Below the pieces are notes generated by a model. It saw nothing but the letters and a program-made list of their open reading frames with translations, was not told the origin of the DNA and searched no databases. DNA of 64,000 bases from NCBI RefSeq assembly GCF_000799735.1, contig NZ_JUHH01000001.1, positions 434,001-498,000 on the forward strand, written 5' to 3'. This document shows positions 1 to 40,899 of this stretch, one piece after another. Origin of the DNA: Methylotenera sp. G11. GTDB taxonomy: Bacteria > Pseudomonadota > Gammaproteobacteria > Burkholderiales > Methylophilaceae. Positions within the stretch are counted from its first letter, which is position 1, and each line of letters opens with the position of its first letter. A program made the translations under genes and the position numbers.

Positions 1-770
1 TGCGGCGCTTTGTGTTCTTCATGACATTCTGCGCAGCGTGTGGTGCCGATAAAGCGGTGTGCCGCGTTGAAGGTGTTTTTCTGCAATGCGGAATCCGCAA
101 TATGCGGTCCGATGTCGCGGTGACAGGTCATGCAGGCTTTGTCTGAAACTTTTTGCAGCGGTACCTGGTGGCAATTGAAACACTGGGAACCGAAATGCAT
201 GTGTGAAGCCGATATGCGCCCGGGGCTCCATATGCGGTCGAAGCCGAACGGTAATTCCGCCATGGCTTTATGTACCGGAGGCATCAGGTTCTGCATCAGC
301 GGCAACACCAGCCCCAGCATGGTGATCATGATGGCAAGGAAGATCGATAAACGCCTTTTAAAGGAAGATGCGCCAGCAAGTGGCTTGTGGGTGCGTGCCT
401 TGAGATCCTGGAAATCATCCGGCATGCGATGCGCCAGTACCAGTGAAATCGCCAGGTCAACGTCTGGCGGGGCAGGTTCAACTTTCAATTCATATGGCCC
501 CACCATTAACCTGGTGCCATAAGCGAGTTCCGTGCCCGGTATCAGCGCGCCATCCATTTCGAGTTCACCGTTTAATGCCTGCACGACAAAATGGCCTTCT
601 ACGTTTTGCTTGATCACCGCGTGATGCATGGACAGGCGAGGATCCGGCAGATGCACGTTGCATTCAGCGCCGCGGCCAAGCATCAGCTCATGGGCGGCGA
701 TGGTGCGGTAGCTCCTGACCGGCAAGCCGCGGGAGTTGTAGGTGATTTTTATTAAAAGGCAATTAAACAT
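1..770 (-). CDS. FHA domain / membrane anchor / multihaem cytochrome c (partial at left edge)
   Basis: Open reading frame on the minus strand from an ATG at 770 to the window edge (256 codons seen, no stop, so the protein is longer). An in-frame TGA lies four codons upstream of the ATG, which fixes the start. Residues about 25-95 form an FHA (phosphothreonine-binding) domain with the hallmark GR at 32-33 and S47-x-HH49-50. Residues about 141-160 are a membrane segment preceded by basic KRR. Beyond it are three c-type haem motifs, CFNCH (197-201), CMTCH (213-217) and CAECH (246-250); more may follow outside the window. The predicted topology is a cytoplasmic FHA sensor with periplasmic haems. 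It is the third gene of a minus-strand set with a cytochrome b (860-1690) and a flavo/cNMP/Fe-S protein (1703-4159). Domains are clear; the role in electron transfer is inferred. Confidence 0.85.
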   Translation of the reverse strand, partial: MFNCLLIKITYNSRGLPVRSYRTIAAHELMLGRGAECNVHLPDPRLSMHHAVIKQNVEGHFVVQALNGELEMDGALIPGTELAYGTRLMVGPYELKVEPAPPDVDLAISLVLAHRMPDDFQDLKARTHKPLAGASSFKRRLSIFLAIMITMLGLVLPLMQNLMPPVHKAMAELPFGFDRIWSPGRISASHMHFGSQCFNCHQVPLQKVSDKACMTCHRDIGPHIADSALQKNTFNAAHRFIGTTRCAECHEEHKAP

Positions 771-859
771 AGGGTAGTTTCAATCAATTCATCGTTTGAG
801 CGCATTGCCGTGCTGGCTGCCGCTCATATCACGCATTGCCGGATGTCCTTTTCATTTTT

Positions 860-1690
860 TTACCAGTAAACAAATACGGCAATGATGTGCGCCGTCATTG
901 CCACCAGCAGGGCGATAGTAAAGGGAACATGCAGATACAGCCAGATGCCTAGCCGTGCACGGTACATCAGATCCTGGCGGGCGCGTTTCACCAGCGACAG
1001 GCGGCGTACCATGATGGTGTATAGCTCACGGTACAGCTTGCGCTGATCAGGCGTGAGTTCATTCGCCATCGCTGTCAGGTCATCCACGGCCTGTGCGGAA
1101 GGGCAGTTGGGCTGGTAGCCTCGCAGCTGGTCAATGAGCCCCAGGCCTATTGATGTCTCCCGGCAGGCGCGCGACACCGTGTTGTTGATGGCGTCAGGCA
1201 TGACGAGTGCGATCTGGCGCGCAAGCTTGTCGGCCTCCGCAATGCGCAGCAATAAGCTATCCAGGCTATCTTCGCCCATATTCTCGCTCATCTGGCGCGG
1301 GTAAATCATGTAGGTATAGTTGCCGAAAAAACCGCTGGCGACCACAACCAGCAGCAAGGCATAAGCCAGCGTATGGATGTTGATGCCATAATGAAAACCG
1401 CTATGCAGGGTAACCAGAACCGTCATGGCCGTGCCCAGGTAAATGTGTGCGGACAGCCACCCCTGTGTCGAACCGCTGCTGCGGTAACGTCTTTTGCGGA
1501 TGCCGTACCATGCCATCCATAACACCATCAGTGCGGAAACCGTACCCAAGCCATAACCGAGCACGCTGCCGCCATAATGGCCTACCGCCGGCTCAAAGAT
1601 CAGGTAAGCGGCGAAGGCAACCAGGATAACAAGGACTGCAATCTTGAAATAGCGATAGTTTTTGTAATCGAAAATATTGCCGCGCTGCAT
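860..1690 (-). CDS. Dihaem cytochrome b-like integral membrane protein
   Basis: A 276-residue polytopic membrane protein. Membrane segments are visible near residues 14-34, 42-62, 77-95, 103-128 and 248-275, with a soluble, mostly helical stretch at about 130-240. Two histidine pairs have the spacing H-x13-H: one in the segment that starts SAHIYLG and ends TLHSGFH, the other in the last segment between YLHVPF and TAHIIAV. This spacing is typical of bis-histidine b haems in cytochrome b and ferric-reductase-type proteins, so two b haems are inferred. The ATG at 1690 lies 12 bases after the stop of the flavo/Fe-S gene, so the two are surely co-transcribed. It is the likely membrane link between a cytoplasmic electron donor and the periplasmic haems of the next gene. 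No named family was recognised with confidence. Confidence 0.8.
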   Translation of the reverse strand: MQRGNIFDYKNYRYFKIAVLVILVAFAAYLIFEPAVGHYGGSVLGYGLGTVSALMVLWMAWYGIRKRRYRSSGSTQGWLSAHIYLGTAMTVLVTLHSGFHYGINIHTLAYALLLVVVASGFFGNYTYMIYPRQMSENMGEDSLDSLLLRIAEADKLARQIALVMPDAINNTVSRACRETSIGLGLIDQLRGYQPNCPSAQAVDDLTAMANELTPDQRKLYRELYTIMVRRLSLVKRARQDLMYRARLGIWLYLHVPFTIALLVAMTAHIIAVFVYW

Positions 1691-1702
1691 CAGCTGTTCT
1701 TT

Positions 1703-4159
1703 CTATTCATCATCGGAACCCAATAAACTGACTTCACCCGATGTTCCGCTTGCATAGCCCAGCAGGCCTTCCGGGTTTACGCGCAGTGCAGCGCCGACCG
1801 GGCAGGCACGCACACAGACCGGGCCTTCCTTGATGTCTTTGCACATATCGCATTTAACGGCCACTTTTGTGCCTTCAGTATCATCATGCACCTTGGGGGT
1901 AATGCCCAGCATCATCTGCCACAGGCTGCGCTCAGGCTGTTCGCGGATGACTGCCATCTGAATCACATCATATGGGCAGTTCTGCTGGCAGTTACCGCAG
2001 CCTATGCAGCTGTCATCGATATAAACCTCGCCATGCGGAGCGCGATGGATTGCATCGGGCGGGCAATCTTTCATGCAGTGAGGGTGTTCGCAATGGCGGC
2101 AAGAGGTAGGAACGCGGATGTTGGCGAAAATCGGCCCTGTCTCGCGGTCCAGGCGCGATGCACCGCCATGGGTGGCGGCACAGGCGTCTTCACAGTAGTT
2201 GCAGCGCACACATAGGGACTCATCGATGAGCAGCACATCGGTGGCTTCGCCGACACCTTGCTGTATCAGGAATGAAATCAGGTTCGACTGGGTGGACTGG
2301 CTGGTAAAAGAGCCGCCGCCACTGGGCGCGCTTTCCAGCTGTTCGCGTTTTTCCTGGTCCTGCAGGTGCTGAAGGTAACGTGCGTCCAGCGAGCTGCGTA
2401 TTTCCGGGTTGCGCGCGATGATTTCACGCATACGGTCAGCCTTGATCATGACCGCATCTGTCGCGACCGCGGCACGCACTGTAGCGTAGCGCGGCTCACC
2501 GGATACCAATGACATTTCGCCGACATAGTTGCCTGCGGCCACATAGAACAGCACGACTTCTCTGCCGGCGATCATGCGTGAAACCGTGACCGAGCCGCTT
2601 TGGATCAGATACAGGCCATCGGCTTCGTCACCTTCGTGGAAAAGCTCTTCTCCAGCCTCGAAGCTTTTTAATATGGCATGGCTGGCAACATCGTTGAGTT
2701 CTTCTTCATCCAGTGAAAGACCGATGCAGATCTGCACAACGGTCTTGATTGCAACCTCATTCAGTACGCGGCGCATAGATTGCACCGAGTTGATGAGTTT
2801 CTGCATCAGGCGTCGCGGGGTTTCGATCAGTACGCACTTGGTGCGTGCCTGTACGGTGCCTGGTCTGCGTCGGCCTGATACCAGTGCCATTTCACCGAAA
2901 AATTCCCCCGTTTTAAGATGACCATCCGGATGTTCGTCATCGTCGATCAATACATCGAGTTCACCTTCCACGATAAAAAAGAACGTGGTGCTGTAATCGT
3001 TGCGCTTGAAAATATAATCACCGGGCTCAGGCAGCAGTATATTGCTTTCCAGTACAAGCTCCCGCAATTGCAGTGTGCTGAGCATTGCCAGCAACGGTAC
3101 GTTTTTCTGGATTTTCAGAATGACGTCATCAACGCCGCGGTCATTGCAGAAGGTCGAGAATTTCTCGCGCAGCATTTCTGTATCGGCCGATTCCACGGGA
3201 TTGCCAAGAATGTGCTCGATGACTTCATAGCCCTGGTTGATGCCCTGTTTGATCAGCGGGTAGCCGGCCAAAGCGCCGATGATGTAAAGGCCGGGTACAT
3301 TGGATTCATAACTTGCGGAAAGCAGGGGCAGAGCGCCGGCATCGGCAGTCGGGAAAGCGACGCCGAAGTTTTCCAGTACCGGACGGGAGGGCAGTGCGCC
3401 AAGGCGCGCGATTATCCTATGGCAGGGGATGCGTTCAATGCCATTGGGTGTGCTTGCAAACAGCGTGATAGGAAAATCGCCGCTGTGGTTTATTTCTATG
3501 GATTGCGGTTTTGTCTGCAGCAGCCAGTCTACAGTGCCTTTCTGCCTGGCTTCGGTCAAGTGGTTGAGGTTGCTGTCTTTCAGGTTGCTGAAATCTTCAG
3601 CCCGGTTAAGGATGATGACCTGATTGCGGCCGGTAAGTGCCAGCGCGTTCTCTACACCGGTGTCACCGCCGCCGACTACCACAATGGTTTCGTTCTGGTA
3701 AGCATCCGGATCGTCCAGGTGATATTGGACCTCAGGTACGTCACCGCCCGGAATTTCAAGTTTACGCAGATTGCCTTGTACGCCGATTGCCAGGATCACA
3801 TGATCCGCAGTGATTTTTTCACCGCTTTCCAGCTGAACTGCCAGATGTTTCGTGGTGCGCGAAATGCCGGCAACCTTGGCGTTATAGCGGATGTTGATTT
3901 TTTTGTCCGCGATGGTCTTTTCCCAGGTTTCGAGGACATTTTCGCGCAGCGATGCACTGAAAGGCAGCGGGCTGCGCAGTGGCAGGGCGCGCGGTTCGGC
4001 CATCACCAGTTTGCGGCGCTGGTAATGACGAATGGTATTGGCAGGCGCTGACGTTGCTTCAAGCAGCAAGTAGTCCGCATTTTGTTCAGCAGCGCGTGTG
4101 GCAGCCGACAGTCCGCTGGGACCCGCGCCGATAATGATAATGTTGAAATGTTTAGCCAT
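1703..4159 (-). CDS. Flavoprotein oxidoreductase fused to two cNMP-binding domains and a four-cluster ferredoxin
   Basis: 818 residues from the ATG at 4159; an upstream in-frame TTG at 4168 would add three residues. Domains in order: a thioredoxin-reductase/YpdA-like FAD and NAD(P) module (about 1-320; GAGPSG near 11-16, VVVGGGDTG near 160); cyclic-nucleotide-binding domain 1 with phosphate cassette FGEMAL...RRRPGTV near 415-427; cyclic-nucleotide-binding domain 2 with GEMSL...PRYATV near 540-555; and a DmsB/HybA-like ferredoxin with four cysteine sets (CVRCNYCEDAC near 648, CRHCEHPHCMKDCP, CIGCGNCQQNCP near 718, CDMC...CVRACP near 769), enough for four [4Fe-4S] clusters. There is no signal peptide, so it is cytoplasmic. 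It is inferred to pass electrons from NAD(P)H to the downstream cytochrome b under cyclic-nucleotide control. The domain calls are strong; substrate and partner are unknown. Confidence 0.88.
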   Translation of the reverse strand: MAKHFNIIIIGAGPSGLSAATRAAEQNADYLLLEATSAPANTIRHYQRRKLVMAEPRALPLRSPLPFSASLRENVLETWEKTIADKKINIRYNAKVAGISRTTKHLAVQLESGEKITADHVILAIGVQGNLRKLEIPGGDVPEVQYHLDDPDAYQNETIVVVGGGDTGVENALALTGRNQVIILNRAEDFSNLKDSNLNHLTEARQKGTVDWLLQTKPQSIEINHSGDFPITLFASTPNGIERIPCHRIIARLGALPSRPVLENFGVAFPTADAGALPLLSASYESNVPGLYIIGALAGYPLIKQGINQGYEVIEHILGNPVESADTEMLREKFSTFCNDRGVDDVILKIQKNVPLLAMLSTLQLRELVLESNILLPEPGDYIFKRNDYSTTFFFIVEGELDVLIDDDEHPDGHLKTGEFFGEMALVSGRRRPGTVQARTKCVLIETPRRLMQKLINSVQSMRRVLNEVAIKTVVQICIGLSLDEEELNDVASHAILKSFEAGEELFHEGDEADGLYLIQSGSVTVSRMIAGREVVLFYVAAGNYVGEMSLVSGEPRYATVRAAVATDAVMIKADRMREIIARNPEIRSSLDARYLQHLQDQEKREQLESAPSGGGSFTSQSTQSNLISFLIQQGVGEATDVLLIDESLCVRCNYCEDACAATHGGASRLDRETGPIFANIRVPTSCRHCEHPHCMKDCPPDAIHRAPHGEVYIDDSCIGCGNCQQNCPYDVIQMAVIREQPERSLWQMMLGITPKVHDDTEGTKVAVKCDMCKDIKEGPVCVRACPVGAALRVNPEGLLGYASGTSGEVSLLGSDDE

Positions 4160-4820: not shown

Positions 4821-7800
4821 CTAATCCAGCAATATCTCGCCTTTGCGCAATAGCAGCTCAAAATCCCTGGCGGGTAATGGTTTGCTGAACAGGTAACCCT
4901 GGATCTGATCGCACTGCTGACTCTGTAAAAACTCCAGCTGCTGTCTTGTTTCCACGCCTTCGGCAATCACCTTGAACCCAAGCCCTTTCGCCATGCCGAT
5001 GATGGCGGTGATGATTGCCGCATCTTCAGGAAACAGCCCCATATCCCGTACAAATGACTGATCTATCTTGAGTTTATCGATCTTGAACTGTTTCAGGTAA
5101 TTGAGTGAAGAATAACCGGTGCCAAAATCATCAATCGAGAGATTGATGCCGAGCACCTTGAGCTGGTTCAGCACGCGGATGGTGCGTTCAGAATCTTCCA
5201 TGGCGATACTCTCGGTCATTTCCAGTTCAAGCATGGCAGCGTCAAGCTTCGTTTCGCGCAGCGCGTCGCAGATGGATTCGTACAGAGAATCCTGGCGGAA
5301 CTGCACGATGGAAAGATTGACGGCAACCGGCACGATGGCGATGCCTGCAGACTGCCACCCGGCTAATTGCTGCAAGGCAGTATTCAATACCCAGTTTCCG
5401 ATTTCATTGATGAGGCTGCTTTCTTCGGCAATCGGTATGAAACTCGCGGGCGATACCATGCCTTTTTTCGGGTGCCGCCAACGTATGAGGGCTTCAGCGC
5501 CGATAATTTTTGATGTGACGATATCCACCTGGGGTTGGTAATACAATTCAAATTCACGCTGTTCCAGTGCCTGCCTGAGTTCATTTTCGATCTGCAGCAC
5601 TTCATAGGCCTGCTCGTGCATCTGCTGGGTAAAGAACTGGAAATTATTGCGGCCGGCTTGCTTGGCGCGATACAGCGCTGCATCCGCAGATTGTGCGAGC
5701 TGTTCAAAACTGTCACCATCCTGCGGAAACTCGGCAATACCTATACTGGATGTCAGCGTGATGCGCTGTGAACCGAAAGTGAATGGCTGGGATACGATTT
5801 CCAACAGTTTTTTTGCTACGTGGGCAGCGCCTTCTGCATCCGTGCCGGGCAGCAGCATGATGAATTCATCCCCGCCTTGTCGGCTTAAAGTATCTTCGGG
5901 GCGTAAAGTGTTCAGCAGGCGTTTTGCAAGCTCTTGCAGCAAGGCGTCGCCAGTGCTGGGACCCAGGGATTCATTGACGAACTTGAATCGGTCAAGATCA
6001 AGGTAAATCAGCGCCAGAGGCTCGTTGCTGCGATTAGCGGCAGCCAATGCCAGCTTTGCCCGGTCACTAAGCAGGCTGCGGTTCGGCAGTTGTGTGAGCG
6101 CGTCAAAATTACTCAAAAATTCTATGCGCTGTTCTGCCAGTTTATGCTCTGACAGGTCGCTGATGATGCCGATATGCTGTGTGATCTTTCCATCCTGATT
6201 GCGGATGGTGCTGATAGACAGGCGTTCGGAGAAAAACTCACCGTCTTTACGACGGTTGAGAACTTCACCTTGCCAGTATCCTTTGTGGGCGATCTGCTGC
6301 CACATTGCTTTGTAGAAGGCTTTGTTGGTAATGCCGGATGCCAGTACGCGTGGATTCTTGCCGATAATTTCCTCGGCTTTATAACCGGTGATCTCAGTAA
6401 AGGCTTTGTTGACGGTCAGGATGTTATTGCAGGCATCCGTGGTGATAATGCCTTCGCGGCTGAATTCAAACACTTGTGCGTTGACGCGTAACCGTTCTTC
6501 GGCAGCTTTACTATCGGTAATGTCCAGCCATGCACCTACCACCTCAACCGGTTTTCCTTCGCCGTCCCGGATCAGCATCAGCTGGTCATCTATCCATATC
6601 ACGCTGCCATCGGCATGCATAAAGCGGTACTGGTGGTTCAAATAGCCTTGTGACAGCAATTCCTGCTGAGCTTTCATGACGGTAGCCCTGTCCTCAGGGT
6701 GCACGTGGTTGAGCCAGAATCGTGGACTATGCCAGTCTTTAACCGCGTAGCCTGTCAGTTTCTGGATGTTGTCACCGATGAAATCAACGACAAAATCCTT
6801 ATGCCCGGGGTGAACTTTGAGTGAGTAAATAATAGCCGGGTTTACATTCAGTATATGATTGATACGGTTGTAAGCGCCTTCCAGATCCTGTACCAGTTTC
6901 AGACGCTGCGCTTCGTGATCGAAATTGTTAAGTGCAAAACTGATGTCGGTCGTCAGTTCTTTCAGCAAATTGGTGATTTCTTCATCAAAACCATTGGGCT
7001 TGGTCTGATACACGTTCAGGGCTGCAAACGGTTTGCCGTTGCGCTGGATAGGGAAGGTTGCCGCGGACTCCCAGCCGAATTGTCTTGCCAAGTCATGCCA
7101 ATGCTCGGTGATTTTGTTGGTCAGGTAGTCATTCAGGATCATGATCCTGTTTTCTCTTAAGCAAATACCGGTTGGCCCCTGTCCGCCAGGCAAGTCTTCC
7201 AGTATCGAGAGTGACAGGTTTTCAGTATATTCAACGCCGCTGCCATAGACCGCTACCGGTAATATTGCTGAGCTTGCTTCGTCAAGCTGGCCTATCCATG
7301 CCATTTTCATCCCACCGAAATCAACGGCGCACCTGCACACCAGTGGGAACAGGTCGTCTTCATTCTCCATGCGCACAATGGCCTGGTTGATCTGGCTTAG
7401 CGCCTGATAGAGCTGGGTCAGCTGTTTGATCCGGTCTTCGGTTTTTTTTCTTTCGGATAAATCGCGCACGTTGAGGAAGTAAGTCTCAGCGTCAAGTTTC
7501 TGGCAGCTGACTTCCACCATAAACTCTTCGTTATTACTGCGGATGAATGTACATTCTTCATACAAGACTTTGCCGGACATGACTTTTTTGACGCTGGGTT
7601 CCAGCCGCGCAAGCTCACGCGCTGCCAGGATGTCATGCATACGCATTTTTAAAAGCTCATCACGTTCATGATGCAGCATCTGCAATGCTGCATTGTTGGC
7701 TTCCAGTATAGCGTGCTCACGACTCAAGACCAGAACGCCATCGCCCGTCTGATCAAACAATTGCTGATAACGGGCATCTGCGCTCTGGCGGCTCCTGATC

Positions 7801-8834
7801 AGGAACCATATTGACAGCCCCAGCAGCATTGTCAGCGCAACACCTGTCAGAGCGACCAATGTTGATTTTTTGTTGGTGATGATCCGTTCCGTAAAAGCGG
7901 GAGTCGTATTTAATAATATCGTCCAGTGGCTACCGGCGATATCCAGTATCCGTGTTGTCTGCAGGTCGCCTTGTGCGCGTCTCTGGGCATGACCAGTTTT
8001 ATCGGAATGATATAAAAGGGTGGAGTTGGATACTGTATCGCTGTCATAGATTTCTATATCGATATCCGGGTCGATTTCGCCGCTGAGCCCTGCCATTAAA
8101 TCATTCAGGCGAAAGGGAATATCTACCCAGGCCGTGATCGCATCACGTCTTTCAGCTACTGTATTGAGCTGGGCGCCTTTTTTGTAGATAGGCAGGTACA
8201 TGACGAATGCATGGACTTTATCTTTGTTTATATCCTGTATCAATGTGAAACGGGAGGTGATCCTGATGTCATTGTCATCTCTTGAACGCGCCATTGCGAT
8301 ACGTGCTGCAGATGCTGTGGAGGTGTCAAAGCCCAGGGCTTTGGCGTTTTCTTCATCGAATGGTTCAATGGTCGTAATCGGGGTATAGAAATCACGTTGC
8401 CCTTCCGGGTAGATTTTGTAATCCGGGAATCCATGCTGACGTTTGTCTTTGATATGACTTGCTTTGTCGGCATCTTTCACCAGCTGGACTAAAGCGATCC
8501 CTTTCAGGCCGGTGTAAGTATTGAGCCGCAGTGATTGAACGTACTGGTGGAACTCTTCGGTGGTGACTTCATTAGAGCCATCAATATAGCCTTTTACGCC
8601 ACGCATCACGACTTGAAAAGCGTTGATGCGGTTGAAAATGTTGGTAGCGGTCACATCCGCGGAATATTCGAGGCTTGCGCGTAGTTTTTTACTGTCATCC
8701 CGCTGCGCTGTCACCCACAGGCTGTAGGTGATGAGTGATCCGGCGAGCATGACCAGCCCTGATAAAAGCCAAGGCGTTAGCTTCATGCTGATCAATCTGG
8801 CAACATGTTTTTTAAGTGTCGATAACAGGCTCAT
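4821..8834 (-). CDS. CHASE-PAS-GAF-PAS-PAS-GGDEF-EAL c-di-GMP turnover protein
   Basis: 1337 residues. Membrane segment near 17-40, a periplasmic CHASE ligand-binding domain (about 70-300), a second membrane segment (about 323-345), then cytoplasmic PAS (about 355-470), GAF (about 480-640), PAS/PAC (about 660-775), PAS/PAC (about 785-900), GGDEF (about 905-1070) and EAL (about 1080-1330). The diguanylate cyclase signature is an intact GGDEF, with an RPED inhibitory-site motif five residues before it (RxxD I-site). The phosphodiesterase signature EALIRW and later metal-binding motifs (DDFGTGYSSL) look intact, so the protein may both make and break c-di-GMP. The ATG at 8834 gives MSLLSTLKK. It is monocistronic, convergent with the deaminase gene. 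The CHASE ligand is unknown. Confidence 0.95.
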   Translation of the reverse strand: MSLLSTLKKHVARLISMKLTPWLLSGLVMLAGSLITYSLWVTAQRDDSKKLRASLEYSADVTATNIFNRINAFQVVMRGVKGYIDGSNEVTTEEFHQYVQSLRLNTYTGLKGIALVQLVKDADKASHIKDKRQHGFPDYKIYPEGQRDFYTPITTIEPFDEENAKALGFDTSTASAARIAMARSRDDNDIRITSRFTLIQDINKDKVHAFVMYLPIYKKGAQLNTVAERRDAITAWVDIPFRLNDLMAGLSGEIDPDIDIEIYDSDTVSNSTLLYHSDKTGHAQRRAQGDLQTTRILDIAGSHWTILLNTTPAFTERIITNKKSTLVALTGVALTMLLGLSIWFLIRSRQSADARYQQLFDQTGDGVLVLSREHAILEANNAALQMLHHERDELLKMRMHDILAARELARLEPSVKKVMSGKVLYEECTFIRSNNEEFMVEVSCQKLDAETYFLNVRDLSERKKTEDRIKQLTQLYQALSQINQAIVRMENEDDLFPLVCRCAVDFGGMKMAWIGQLDEASSAILPVAVYGSGVEYTENLSLSILEDLPGGQGPTGICLRENRIMILNDYLTNKITEHWHDLARQFGWESAATFPIQRNGKPFAALNVYQTKPNGFDEEITNLLKELTTDISFALNNFDHEAQRLKLVQDLEGAYNRINHILNVNPAIIYSLKVHPGHKDFVVDFIGDNIQKLTGYAVKDWHSPRFWLNHVHPEDRATVMKAQQELLSQGYLNHQYRFMHADGSVIWIDDQLMLIRDGEGKPVEVVGAWLDITDSKAAEERLRVNAQVFEFSREGIITTDACNNILTVNKAFTEITGYKAEEIIGKNPRVLASGITNKAFYKAMWQQIAHKGYWQGEVLNRRKDGEFFSERLSISTIRNQDGKITQHIGIISDLSEHKLAEQRIEFLSNFDALTQLPNRSLLSDRAKLALAAANRSNEPLALIYLDLDRFKFVNESLGPSTGDALLQELAKRLLNTLRPEDTLSRQGGDEFIMLLPGTDAEGAAHVAKKLLEIVSQPFTFGSQRITLTSSIGIAEFPQDGDSFEQLAQSADAALYRAKQAGRNNFQFFTQQMHEQAYEVLQIENELRQALEQREFELYYQPQVDIVTSKIIGAEALIRWRHPKKGMVSPASFIPIAEESSLINEIGNWVLNTALQQLAGWQSAGIAIVPVAVNLSIVQFRQDSLYESICDALRETKLDAAMLELEMTESIAMEDSERTIRVLNQLKVLGINLSIDDFGTGYSSLNYLKQFKIDKLKIDQSFVRDMGLFPEDAAIITAIIGMAKGLGFKVIAEGVETRQQLEFLQSQQCDQIQGYLFSKPLPARDFELLLRKGEILLD

Positions 8835-37806: not shown

Positions 37807-39006
37807 ATGCTATCAATATCAGCAAAGCCATACATAGATGCCAGCGTGCCCGTACTCAGGCAGCATGGACTCGCAATTACGACATTGTTTTATAAAAACA
37901 TGTTCGAAGCCCACCCCGAACTCATGAACCTATTCAATATGGGAAACCAGGCTAATGGTTCTCAACAGCAGTCGCTGGCAGCCGCAGTATTCGCTTATGC
38001 GGCCAATATCGATAATACGGAAGCATTAAAACCGGTGGTGGAAAGGATCGTGCATAAGCATGTTTCTGTCGGCATCAAACCTGAGCATTACCCTATCGTT
38101 GGACATCATTTAATTGGCGCGATTAAAGGCGTGCTTGGTGATGCGGCAACACCTGAGCTGATCGAGGCCTGGGAGGAAGCGTATGGCCTATTAGCGGATG
38201 CATTGATTACCACTGAAGCCTTACTCTACAAGCAGAATAACCAGCAGCCGGATGAATGGATCAAGCTTAAAGTAACAGAGAAACTGCATCAGACGGACAA
38301 TGTGGTTTCATTTACCTTGCGCGCAGATGATCAGACCAAATTACCTGCTTTTAAGCCTGGCCAGTATATAAGTGTGGCTGTGCATATTGAAGAATTGAAC
38401 TTGAGGCAGATCAGGCAATATAGTTTGTCTGATTCACCGCAAAAAAATACACTCAGGATCACGGTGAAACGGGAAGGCGGAGATGAATATAAACCTCAGG
38501 GTAATGTATCAAACTGGCTGCATCAGCACACAAGGGTTGGCAGCACCATTAACGTCAGCTTCCCATGTGGAAACTTTACGCCTGATATTCAGGATCCGCG
38601 CCCTATCGCTTTGGTTTCCGCAGGTGTAGGCATTACACCGATGATTTCAATATTGAATGATATTGCAGTTACCAATCCGGGCAGGAAAGTGATGTTTGCA
38701 CACGCAGCCCGCAATATCGCCAGCGTTGCACACATTGATGAGATACAGAGCGCAAAAGGTAAACTGGAGAATCTGGAAACGGTTTTCTTTCTGAATGAGT
38801 CAAAAAAACAGCATATTGACGAAAGGGAAGGACGCATGGATTTAAGCAGCCATATCACGCCGGAGTTCAGGGATGGCATCTATTACATATGTGGACCACA
38901 GTCGTTTATGGATGATCAGCGTGATGCCTTGATCGAATTGGGCATTCATCAAAACAATATTCATAGGGAAGTATTTGGCCCAGAAAGTCTTAATCACTTA
39001 ATTTAA
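37807..39006 (+). CDS. hmp: Flavohaemoglobin, nitric oxide dioxygenase
   Basis: 399 residues, the usual Hmp length. Globin domain (1-140) with Tyr29 (B10), Gln53 (E7), proximal His85 (F8), Tyr95 and Glu137, all intact. FAD domain (about 150-255) with RQYSLSD, and NAD domain (about 265-395) with SAGVGITPM, ICGPQSFM and EVFGPE. It oxidises NO to nitrate with O2 and NAD(P)H in the cytoplasm. Under an NsrR-type operator. Its globin domain is the close paralogue of the haemless globin at 29396. Confidence 0.97.
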   Translation: MLSISAKPYIDASVPVLRQHGLAITTLFYKNMFEAHPELMNLFNMGNQANGSQQQSLAAAVFAYAANIDNTEALKPVVERIVHKHVSVGIKPEHYPIVGHHLIGAIKGVLGDAATPELIEAWEEAYGLLADALITTEALLYKQNNQQPDEWIKLKVTEKLHQTDNVVSFTLRADDQTKLPAFKPGQYISVAVHIEELNLRQIRQYSLSDSPQKNTLRITVKREGGDEYKPQGNVSNWLHQHTRVGSTINVSFPCGNFTPDIQDPRPIALVSAGVGITPMISILNDIAVTNPGRKVMFAHAARNIASVAHIDEIQSAKGKLENLETVFFLNESKKQHIDEREGRMDLSSHITPEFRDGIYYICGPQSFMDDQRDALIELGIHQNNIHREVFGPESLNHLI

Positions 39007-39375: not shown

Positions 39376-40899
39376 ATGATTACAAGCAAATATTTACTTG
39401 AGCAGACCGGTTTATCCAGGGCTACTTTAAATAATTATATTGGCTTGGGATTATTACCGAGGCCTGTAGTCAGGCGCATCGCTACTGATCCGGGCGCCAG
39501 GCTCACCACGCTGGGTTATTTTCCGGACTGGGCTGTGGATCGGGTTCAGCAGGTAAAATTACTTAAAAAACAGGGCTTGTCCATAAACAGTATATGCCGG
39601 CAAATTGCATCGGGAGATAAAACCGATAATGCTGACAACAGTGAAGATACCGTACAAATGCATCACCAGACGGCAGCCAGTGAAGATCGGGTGCAAAACA
39701 ATCACGCTTCGCAGAAAATGAATGCGCGTGAATCTATCAACCTGTCGATAGACAGCATACCCTACCCTGCATATATGATTAATTATGAGTGCGGGCTGGT
39801 GTGGCTGAATGCTGCGGCGCAGCACAGTCTTTTTATGGATTCAGCCATACCGGACAGGGCTGAAGACAGGTCGGTCATTCCGAAATTGCTTGAGTGGTCC
39901 AAAGGTTTTAGCGATTCGGATAAAGAGTCATTATTCAAATCGCACTTTAATGTCGTTAAGCATCGGCTATCCAAAGATACGCTATCCAGAACGATACTGT
40001 CTTTGCCGCAGGATGACAGGCTTTGGCTTGAAAACTGTTACGCACAGTCAGAGGCGCCTAAAAATACATTGATACAGGATACGGTACTGCATCATTCGAT
40101 TGATGTTAACAAACGCATCATCGCGATCAGTTTCAGGGAGGGCGTGCTGTTTACCTATGTGCCGGATGATGCCGACGCCAACCAGTTGCTTGAGTGGCTA
40201 TCGCACAGGGATTCGGTCATTCGCACCCTTCTCAGCCAAAGATTGCCGGTGCTGACACCCGTAACCGTAATGGTTGCCGACTTACAGAACTCAGTGCGTA
40301 TTTGTTCTGAGTTGCCGCCAGATGAGTATTTTCAGTTAATCAATGAAATCTGGTCGGCGCTGGATCCTGTCTTCAGGAAATATTACGGTGCTTATGGCAA
40401 ACACACCGGTGATGGCATGGTGTATTACTTTTTCCCGCAGCCTGATAACAATTACATCATGAATGCCATTTTATGTGCATGTGAGATTCGTGAGTGCATG
40501 AAGGTCATCAGCCACAAATGGGCGCTTAAAAAAGGCTGGACGAATCAACTGTTCATGAATATCGGCCTTAATGAAGGCGAAGAGTGGCTGGGAACATTCA
40601 AAACCAATACAAGTTATGAATTGGTTATCCTGGGTGAAACCATTAACATTTGCGGCAGGCTTTCTGATTTTTCCAGGTATGGGGAAATCTGGGCAACTAA
40701 GAATTTAGTGAGTAAACTCACGCATGCAGAACGGAATTCAATAGACTATGGCGTGATACGCAGGACGCCTGAGCAAGAAATATTCGTTTCAAACAGCTAT
40801 GCTCAGATTTCAACCCTGGTGGATAAAGATGATGTGAGGTACATGAAACTGATTGATATCTCGAGTACGGCAGTAACCCAGATACGTGCAATAAAATAG
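39376..40899 (+). CDS. MerR-type DNA-binding domain fused to a class III adenylate/guanylate cyclase
   Basis: 507 residues. N-terminal MerR-like helix-turn-helix (about 1-75: LLEQTGLSRATLNNYIGLGLLPRP, LKKQGLSINSICRQI), a linker rich in polar residues (about 75-115), a PAS-like region (about 120-270), and a C-terminal class III cyclase domain (about 295-480). Cyclase residues appear to be kept: metal-binding Asp in VMVADLQNS, Lys and Asp in GKHTGDGMVYYF, and Asn/Arg in LGETINICGRL. The last motif differs from the usual G-D-x-V-N by an E, so whether it makes cAMP or cGMP is open. AGGTGG lies upstream of the ATG. It may join second-messenger output to DNA binding in one chain. Confidence 0.8.
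   Translation: MITSKYLLEQTGLSRATLNNYIGLGLLPRPVVRRIATDPGARLTTLGYFPDWAVDRVQQVKLLKKQGLSINSICRQIASGDKTDNADNSEDTVQMHHQTAASEDRVQNNHASQKMNARESINLSIDSIPYPAYMINYECGLVWLNAAAQHSLFMDSAIPDRAEDRSVIPKLLEWSKGFSDSDKESLFKSHFNVVKHRLSKDTLSRTILSLPQDDRLWLENCYAQSEAPKNTLIQDTVLHHSIDVNKRIIAISFREGVLFTYVPDDADANQLLEWLSHRDSVIRTLLSQRLPVLTPVTVMVADLQNSVRICSELPPDEYFQLINEIWSALDPVFRKYYGAYGKHTGDGMVYYFFPQPDNNYIMNAILCACEIRECMKVISHKWALKKGWTNQLFMNIGLNEGEEWLGTFKTNTSYELVILGETINICGRLSDFSRYGEIWATKNLVSKLTHAERNSIDYGVIRRTPEQEIFVSNSYAQISTLVDKDDVRYMKLIDISSTAVTQIRAIK

Follow-up and report, generated by a model that had tools for sequence, protein, structure and literature searches.

The window analysed here is a stretch of 64,000 nucleotides (G000:C1:434001-498000) from the genome of Methylotenera sp. 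G11 (2,545,099 bases). It begins with three adjacent genes on the minus strand, transcribed in the order flavoprotein (P0003), membrane protein (P0002) and FHA/decahaem protein (P0001), with intergenic gaps of 12 and 89 bp, respectively (Table 1). An earlier note, made from the sequence alone, had described such a gene set and its domains, and this description was confirmed by the open reading frames, the domain matches and the conserved ligands. Extending the sequence to the left, which the note had proposed as a way of finding more haem motifs, yielded a complete P0001 of 547 amino acids with ten CXXCH motifs, three within the window and seven left of its edge. It is followed by the malate:quinone oxidoreductase gene mqo (P0004; Mqo 5.4e-225; L002:9619-11124, minus strand). 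Among the best 80 of 173 related loci, ten, all of the Methylotenera type, have this gene directly behind the set and in the same orientation. The right neighbour of the set is what we take to be a deaminase-like gene. A 1337-aa open reading frame (window 4821-8834, minus strand) presumably codes for a PAS/GGDEF/EAL signalling protein-like product. The nearest loci in the genome collection belong to Methylotenera MAGs, whose flavoproteins are 92-94% identical to P0003.

Table 1. Position of the three genes and of their parts in the window.
Feature	Position	Strand	Remarks
Flavoprotein: NAD(P)/FAD domain, two cNMP-binding domains, four predicted [4Fe-4S] sites	1703..4159	minus	818 aa, ATG at 4159
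YpdA/thioredoxin-reductase-like NAD(P)/FAD domain, residues about 5-310	3230..4147	minus	domain matches, alignment
cNMP-binding domain 1, residues about 372-460, pocket around FGEMALVSGRRR	2780..3046	minus	E423, R432 in 32/32
cNMP-binding domain 2, residues 498-584, pocket around GEMSLVSGEPR	2408..2668	minus	E548, R557 in 32/32
Ferredoxin-like part, residues about 644-795, 16 Cys = four predicted [4Fe-4S] sites	1775..2230	minus	domain scan, alignment
Membrane protein, PCC3/PCC4 'IMP'-type diheme cytochrome b (predicted), five hydrophobic segments	860..1690	minus	276 aa
FHA/decahaem protein, N-terminal 256 of 547 residues	1..770 (770 leftwards off window)	minus	full gene L002:11127-12770 minus
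FHA domain, residues about 1-112	435..770	minus	domain scan, alignment, structure comparison
Single membrane segment, residues 141-159, preceded by KRR	294..350	minus	sequence

The domain scan of P0003 gave matches to Pyr_redox_3 (1.2e-29) and Pyr_redox_2 (1.2e-26), two cNMP_binding stretches (7.2e-40) and Fer4 domains, together with PF13247 (8.8e-10) at residues 683-735. In an alignment of 32 rows, a less redundant set from 78 usable sequences, the 16 Fe-S cysteines were invariant in their four groups, and so were the Glu and Arg of both cNMP pockets. A CNB domain contains a phosphate-binding cassette with Glu and Arg. P0003 carries two CNB-type domains with these cassette residues and is predicted to bind cyclic nucleotides; domains of the CNB fold can also bind other ligands or none. 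The YpdA-like fold and the Rossmann motifs suggest that NAD(P)H is the substrate of the flavoprotein.

P0002 is of the type termed 'IMP' in PCC3 and PCC4, two candidate porin-cytochrome clusters (He et al., 2017; PMC5566968). It contains two W-x3-H-x13-H motifs, at 78 and 250 (H82/H96 and H254/H268), and an SG-x2-G motif at 119. The four histidines were invariant in all rows of a 46-row alignment (from 86 usable sequences, 5 of 51 representatives being left out), while both W-x3-H-x13-H motifs were present in 45 rows and SGXXG likewise in 45. None of 20000 shuffled P0002 sequences contained two W-x3-H-x13-H motifs. The Pfam match of P0002 to Ni_hydr_CYTB (PF01292, prokaryotic cytochrome b561) reached 17.4 bits vs. 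a cut-off of 30.1; 29 of the 46 family members match PF01292 at E <=0.01, and structure comparison of P0002 returned no clear fold match. Since the family match is below cut-off, it is the conserved histidine motifs that point to two b haems.

For P0001, the domain scan returned an FHA domain (6.1e-6) and c3/c7-type haem domains, and its AlphaFold model matched FHA structures (best 6.1e-6). Its ten CXXCH motifs and ten further histidines were conserved in 45-46 of 46 aligned rows (a less redundant set from 66 usable sequences). The most probable topology has the FHA domain inside and the haems outside.

Conservation of the set and its outer-membrane settings

Related loci were selected by the flavoprotein. 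Among the best 80 of 173 confirmed loci, 73 have the three genes in the same order on one strand. Contig ends interrupt three of the remaining seven (L026, L044 and L048); in L052, L056 and L072 the flavoprotein gene belongs to the cluster but lies at its far end; and for L083 the genes of the membrane and decahaem proteins are on a different contig. An even draw of 397 Pseudomonadota genomes contained 18 with the membrane protein and 17 with the flavoprotein (threshold E up to 1e-120); all 17 are within those 18, and in each the flavoprotein adjoins the membrane protein (Fisher 6e-29, relatedness not corrected). Both samples thus bore out the co-occurrence across genomes on which the earlier note had staked its reading beforehand.

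A draw of 349 genomes from the same order as the window's organism gave 28 membrane-protein matches, G474 and G619 being of a distant kind and G662 a fragment. In the remaining 25 genomes, which have a strong match, the flavoprotein adjoins the membrane protein in 6; another 15 have a cluster of seven genes with the flavoprotein at its far end (12 checked on wider stretches, plus G613, G464 and G019; the coordinates of G613 and G464 are those of the L052 and L056 genomes). In three more, G674, G457 and G496, contig ends prevent a call, and G021, listed as 100% complete, has the membrane and decahaem proteins and no flavoprotein. With 1.5-kb flanks, the flavoprotein (c0) had seemed to be absent beside the pair in 19 of the 25 genomes; this reading was rejected because, on wider stretches, all 12 genomes checked (12 of 12) proved to have the gene at the cluster's far end. 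Of 19 genomes of the genus, 13 encode a close membrane protein and two (G001 and G016) a distant one only; the other four lack it. Gallionella MAGs also hold the core. The G021 locus (L120), with its membrane protein, an FHA-less decahaem protein and no flavoprotein, is a natural stripped-down version of the set; a neighbouring gene there is, we presume, CcmI-like.

The lack of both FHA domain and flavoprotein in G021 first suggested that the FHA domain is a docking partner gained and lost together with the flavoprotein. As a rule this was rejected, because no FHA domain was found in the G019 genus (L119, L151-L153), although the flavoprotein gene is present in G019, where it is divided between two contigs. 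The domain is therefore dispensable in at least one lineage. This bears on the phosphothreonine control of electron flow proposed in the earlier note. The hallmark residues of phosphothreonine-binding FHA domains are GR, S-x-x-H and N, and P0001 itself has G32, R33, S47, H50 and N67. Gly and Arg are retained in all 46 rows, the Ser of S-x-x-H, which we take to be a phosphate-contacting residue, in 7, His in 36 and Asn in 21, and one genus does without the domain. Phosphothreonine control is accordingly weakly supported, and docking at the cytoplasmic face is a likelier role for the FHA domain than that of a phosphothreonine switch.

The core occurs in three outer-membrane settings. In setting A, which comprises the window, other Methylotenera-type loci and Gallionella-type loci, no recognised outer-membrane gene lies nearby. 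Beside the window's three genes there is no porin, 4-haem or 5-haem cytochrome gene, and profile searches of the window's genome for c5, c3 and porin4 gave no match to any of them. In setting B (L063, L122/L169, L188 and L163) the core is accompanied by a porin-like barrel and by 5-haem and 4-haem cytochromes. In L063 and L188 a single stretch encodes the flavoprotein, the IMP, cytochromes with 10, 5 and 4 haems and a porin candidate that resembles a barrel, and L163 has the same content minus the flavoprotein, which sits on another contig (L083); the porin candidate was found in the clusters of L063, L122, L163 and L188. A PCC4-like porin occurs in 6 of 42 genomes with the core and in none of 20 that lack it, a difference that falls short of significance (Fisher 0.085). 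Setting C adds to the core an HbpS-like protein (c4), a barrel-like protein without a Pfam match (c3), a protein of 1250-1360 aa with 10 CXXCH motifs and LVIVD repeats (c5) and a 4-haem c554-like protein (c6). We read c3 and porin4 as putative barrels. Either c3 or c4 is present in 28 of the 80 loci (best 80 of 173), and c5 in 12 of the 397 genomes, every one of which belongs to the 18 core-bearing ones; in some of them c5 is far from the core on the chromosome (e.g., in G323). Two examples of c5 (L052:2909-6667 and L093:22153-26142) are large, secreted-looking cytochromes with 10 CXXCH motifs and C-terminal LVIVD repeats. A search of the CC-licensed PMC literature found no description of the outer-membrane set of setting C. 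Putative PCC and Cyc2 genes have been reported for Methylotenera, and extracellular electron acceptors have been suggested for methylotrophs (PMC6344600).

Proposed route of electrons and alternatives

The linkage of the genes, their domains and the conservation of their ligands are direct observations. The continuous path from NAD(P)/FAD through Fe-S clusters and two b haems to c haems, proposed in the earlier note, was supported and is conserved as a unit in relatives. We consider it rather probable that the three proteins form one inner-membrane complex acting as an NAD(P)H:periplasmic-cytochrome oxidoreductase. Such a complex would form the inner-membrane end of PCC4-type conduits, and a cyclic nucleotide probably gates it; we infer complex formation, electron donor and acceptor, direction and gating. 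In this complex, cytoplasmic NAD(P)H would reduce the FAD of P0003, and the electrons would pass through four [4Fe-4S] clusters to the five-helix diheme cytochrome b, cross the membrane and reach the ten c haems of P0001 in the periplasm, with the FHA domain docking at the cytoplasmic face. In the window's organism, for which no porin partner was recognised, the acceptors would be soluble periplasmic ones or an unrecognised partner.

Since the cNMP-domain pair is set between the flavin and Fe-S parts, it is a natural place for a switch, and it may open or close the step from flavin to Fe-S upon cyclic-nucleotide binding. With Glu and Arg kept in both pockets, such gating of electron flow is plausible. 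The window's genome has one match to PF00211 (class III cyclase; 5.5e-9), at window 39376-40899 on the plus strand, a possible source of the cyclic nucleotide. The product of this gene combines a MerR-like N-terminus (below cut-off) with the cyclase domain, and the gene just upstream (window 37807-39006, plus strand) presumably encodes a flavohaemoglobin-like protein.

Alternatively, the IMP may exchange electrons with quinone instead. It has been likened to quinone-active cytochromes b, and a quinone model has been proposed (PMC5566968); G021 moreover has the IMP and decahaem pair without the flavoprotein. However, in most pair-holding genomes the flavoprotein adjoins the pair or shares its cluster, its redox ligands are invariant, and an NAD(P)/FAD/Fe-S protein also stands beside the PCC3-like IMP, which makes this alternative unlikely. 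We give considerably less credit to an inward flow, in which the module would make NAD(P)H from periplasmic donors, that is, from cytochrome electrons derived from Fe(II) or methanol. PCC4 was proposed from iron-oxidiser genomes (PMC5566968), and the core of the set is held by Gallionella MAGs. No pump or bifurcation part was recognised in the three proteins. Electron flow inward to NAD(P)+ would be uphill in potential and against the membrane voltage, and for this reason the outward direction is preferred. Equally improbable is a redox sensor that would report the redox state of the periplasm to signalling in the cytoplasm. The presumed cytoplasmic side does carry two cNMP domains and an FHA domain, but the ten haems and the linkage to porin-like and multihaem genes in relatives fit electron throughput, and the FHA residues are poorly conserved.

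In published descriptions of extracellular electron transfer systems, the electrons travel through quinone. For the PCC3 and PCC4 candidates, the conserved NAD(P)/flavin/Fe-S partner of the proposed oxidoreductase would be a concrete entry point from metabolism and suggests an outward direction of electrons, and its cNMP domains add a possible second-messenger gate on the electron path itself, not on transcription. In a bolder form, which we put forward only tentatively, the module would be a ligand-gated export channel in which a cyclic nucleotide directly switches the passage of electrons from NAD(P)H to acceptors in the periplasm or outside the cell, and PCC3/PCC4-type conduits would be NAD(P)H-driven exporters, not quinone-linked Fe(II)-oxidation devices.

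Comparison with described systems

The NAD(P)/FAD fold of P0003 resembles that of the bacillithiol disulfide reductase YpdA/Bdr (7a7b, 4.7e-14; TIGR04018, 4.9e-32), but its TIGR04018 score of 111 bits is below the cut-off of 339.9, and in P0003 this fold is fused to cNMP and Fe-S parts. Its two CNB domains in tandem recall those of PKA and PKG (PKG chains being the best PDB match, 5.1e-32); here they are joined to an oxidoreductase and not to a kinase.

The IMP was described as having five transmembrane helices, two W-x3-H-x13-H motifs and SG-x2-G, and PCC4 as containing the IMP, 10-haem, 5-haem and 4-haem cytochromes and a porin; in PCC4 subgroup II, a PF13247 Fe-S gene lies upstream of the IMP gene (PMC5566968). 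The window's P0002 has the five segments and all these motifs, P0001 is a 10-haem cytochrome, and the PF13247 gene, that of P0003, ends 12 bp before the IMP gene, a likeness of gene content to the published description and not to a named PCC4 sequence. The view of the earlier note that no system of this make-up was described is thus to be withdrawn for the membrane and decahaem proteins, which fit published PCC4 parts. In setting B, as far as the predicted products tell, the gene content is that reported for PCC4. In contrast, the window's cluster has no adjoining porin, 4-haem or 5-haem genes. Porin-less IMP-multihaem pairs have also been described, usually with 'another redox protein' (PMC5566968). 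The electron route proposed in that paper is quinone-linked, and its main text makes no mention of cyclic nucleotide, cNMP, FHA, FAD, flavo or pyridine nucleotide.

PCC3 comprises a periplasmic cytochrome of about 21 or more haems and an extracellular multihaem protein (PMC5566968; PMC10734462). P0002 shares the IMP motifs, and G012 and G001, of the same genus, encode a PCC3-like set that includes an NAD(P)/FAD/Fe-S protein, whereas P0001 has 10 haems and no extracellular multihaem neighbour. In distant PCC3-like clusters (L159-L161), the IMP occurs with a divergent NAD(P)/FAD/Fe-S protein and with a 24-27-haem protein that replaces the window's FHA-decahaem protein; the flavoproteins scanned (L159 and L160) have two clusters and no cNMP domain. 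L160 also has a 1673-aa open reading frame with 62 CXXCH motifs. To PCC3 and PCC4 as described, the present analysis adds a subunit with NAD(P)/flavin and cNMP domains, an FHA domain, a setting without a porin, and the gene set of setting C.
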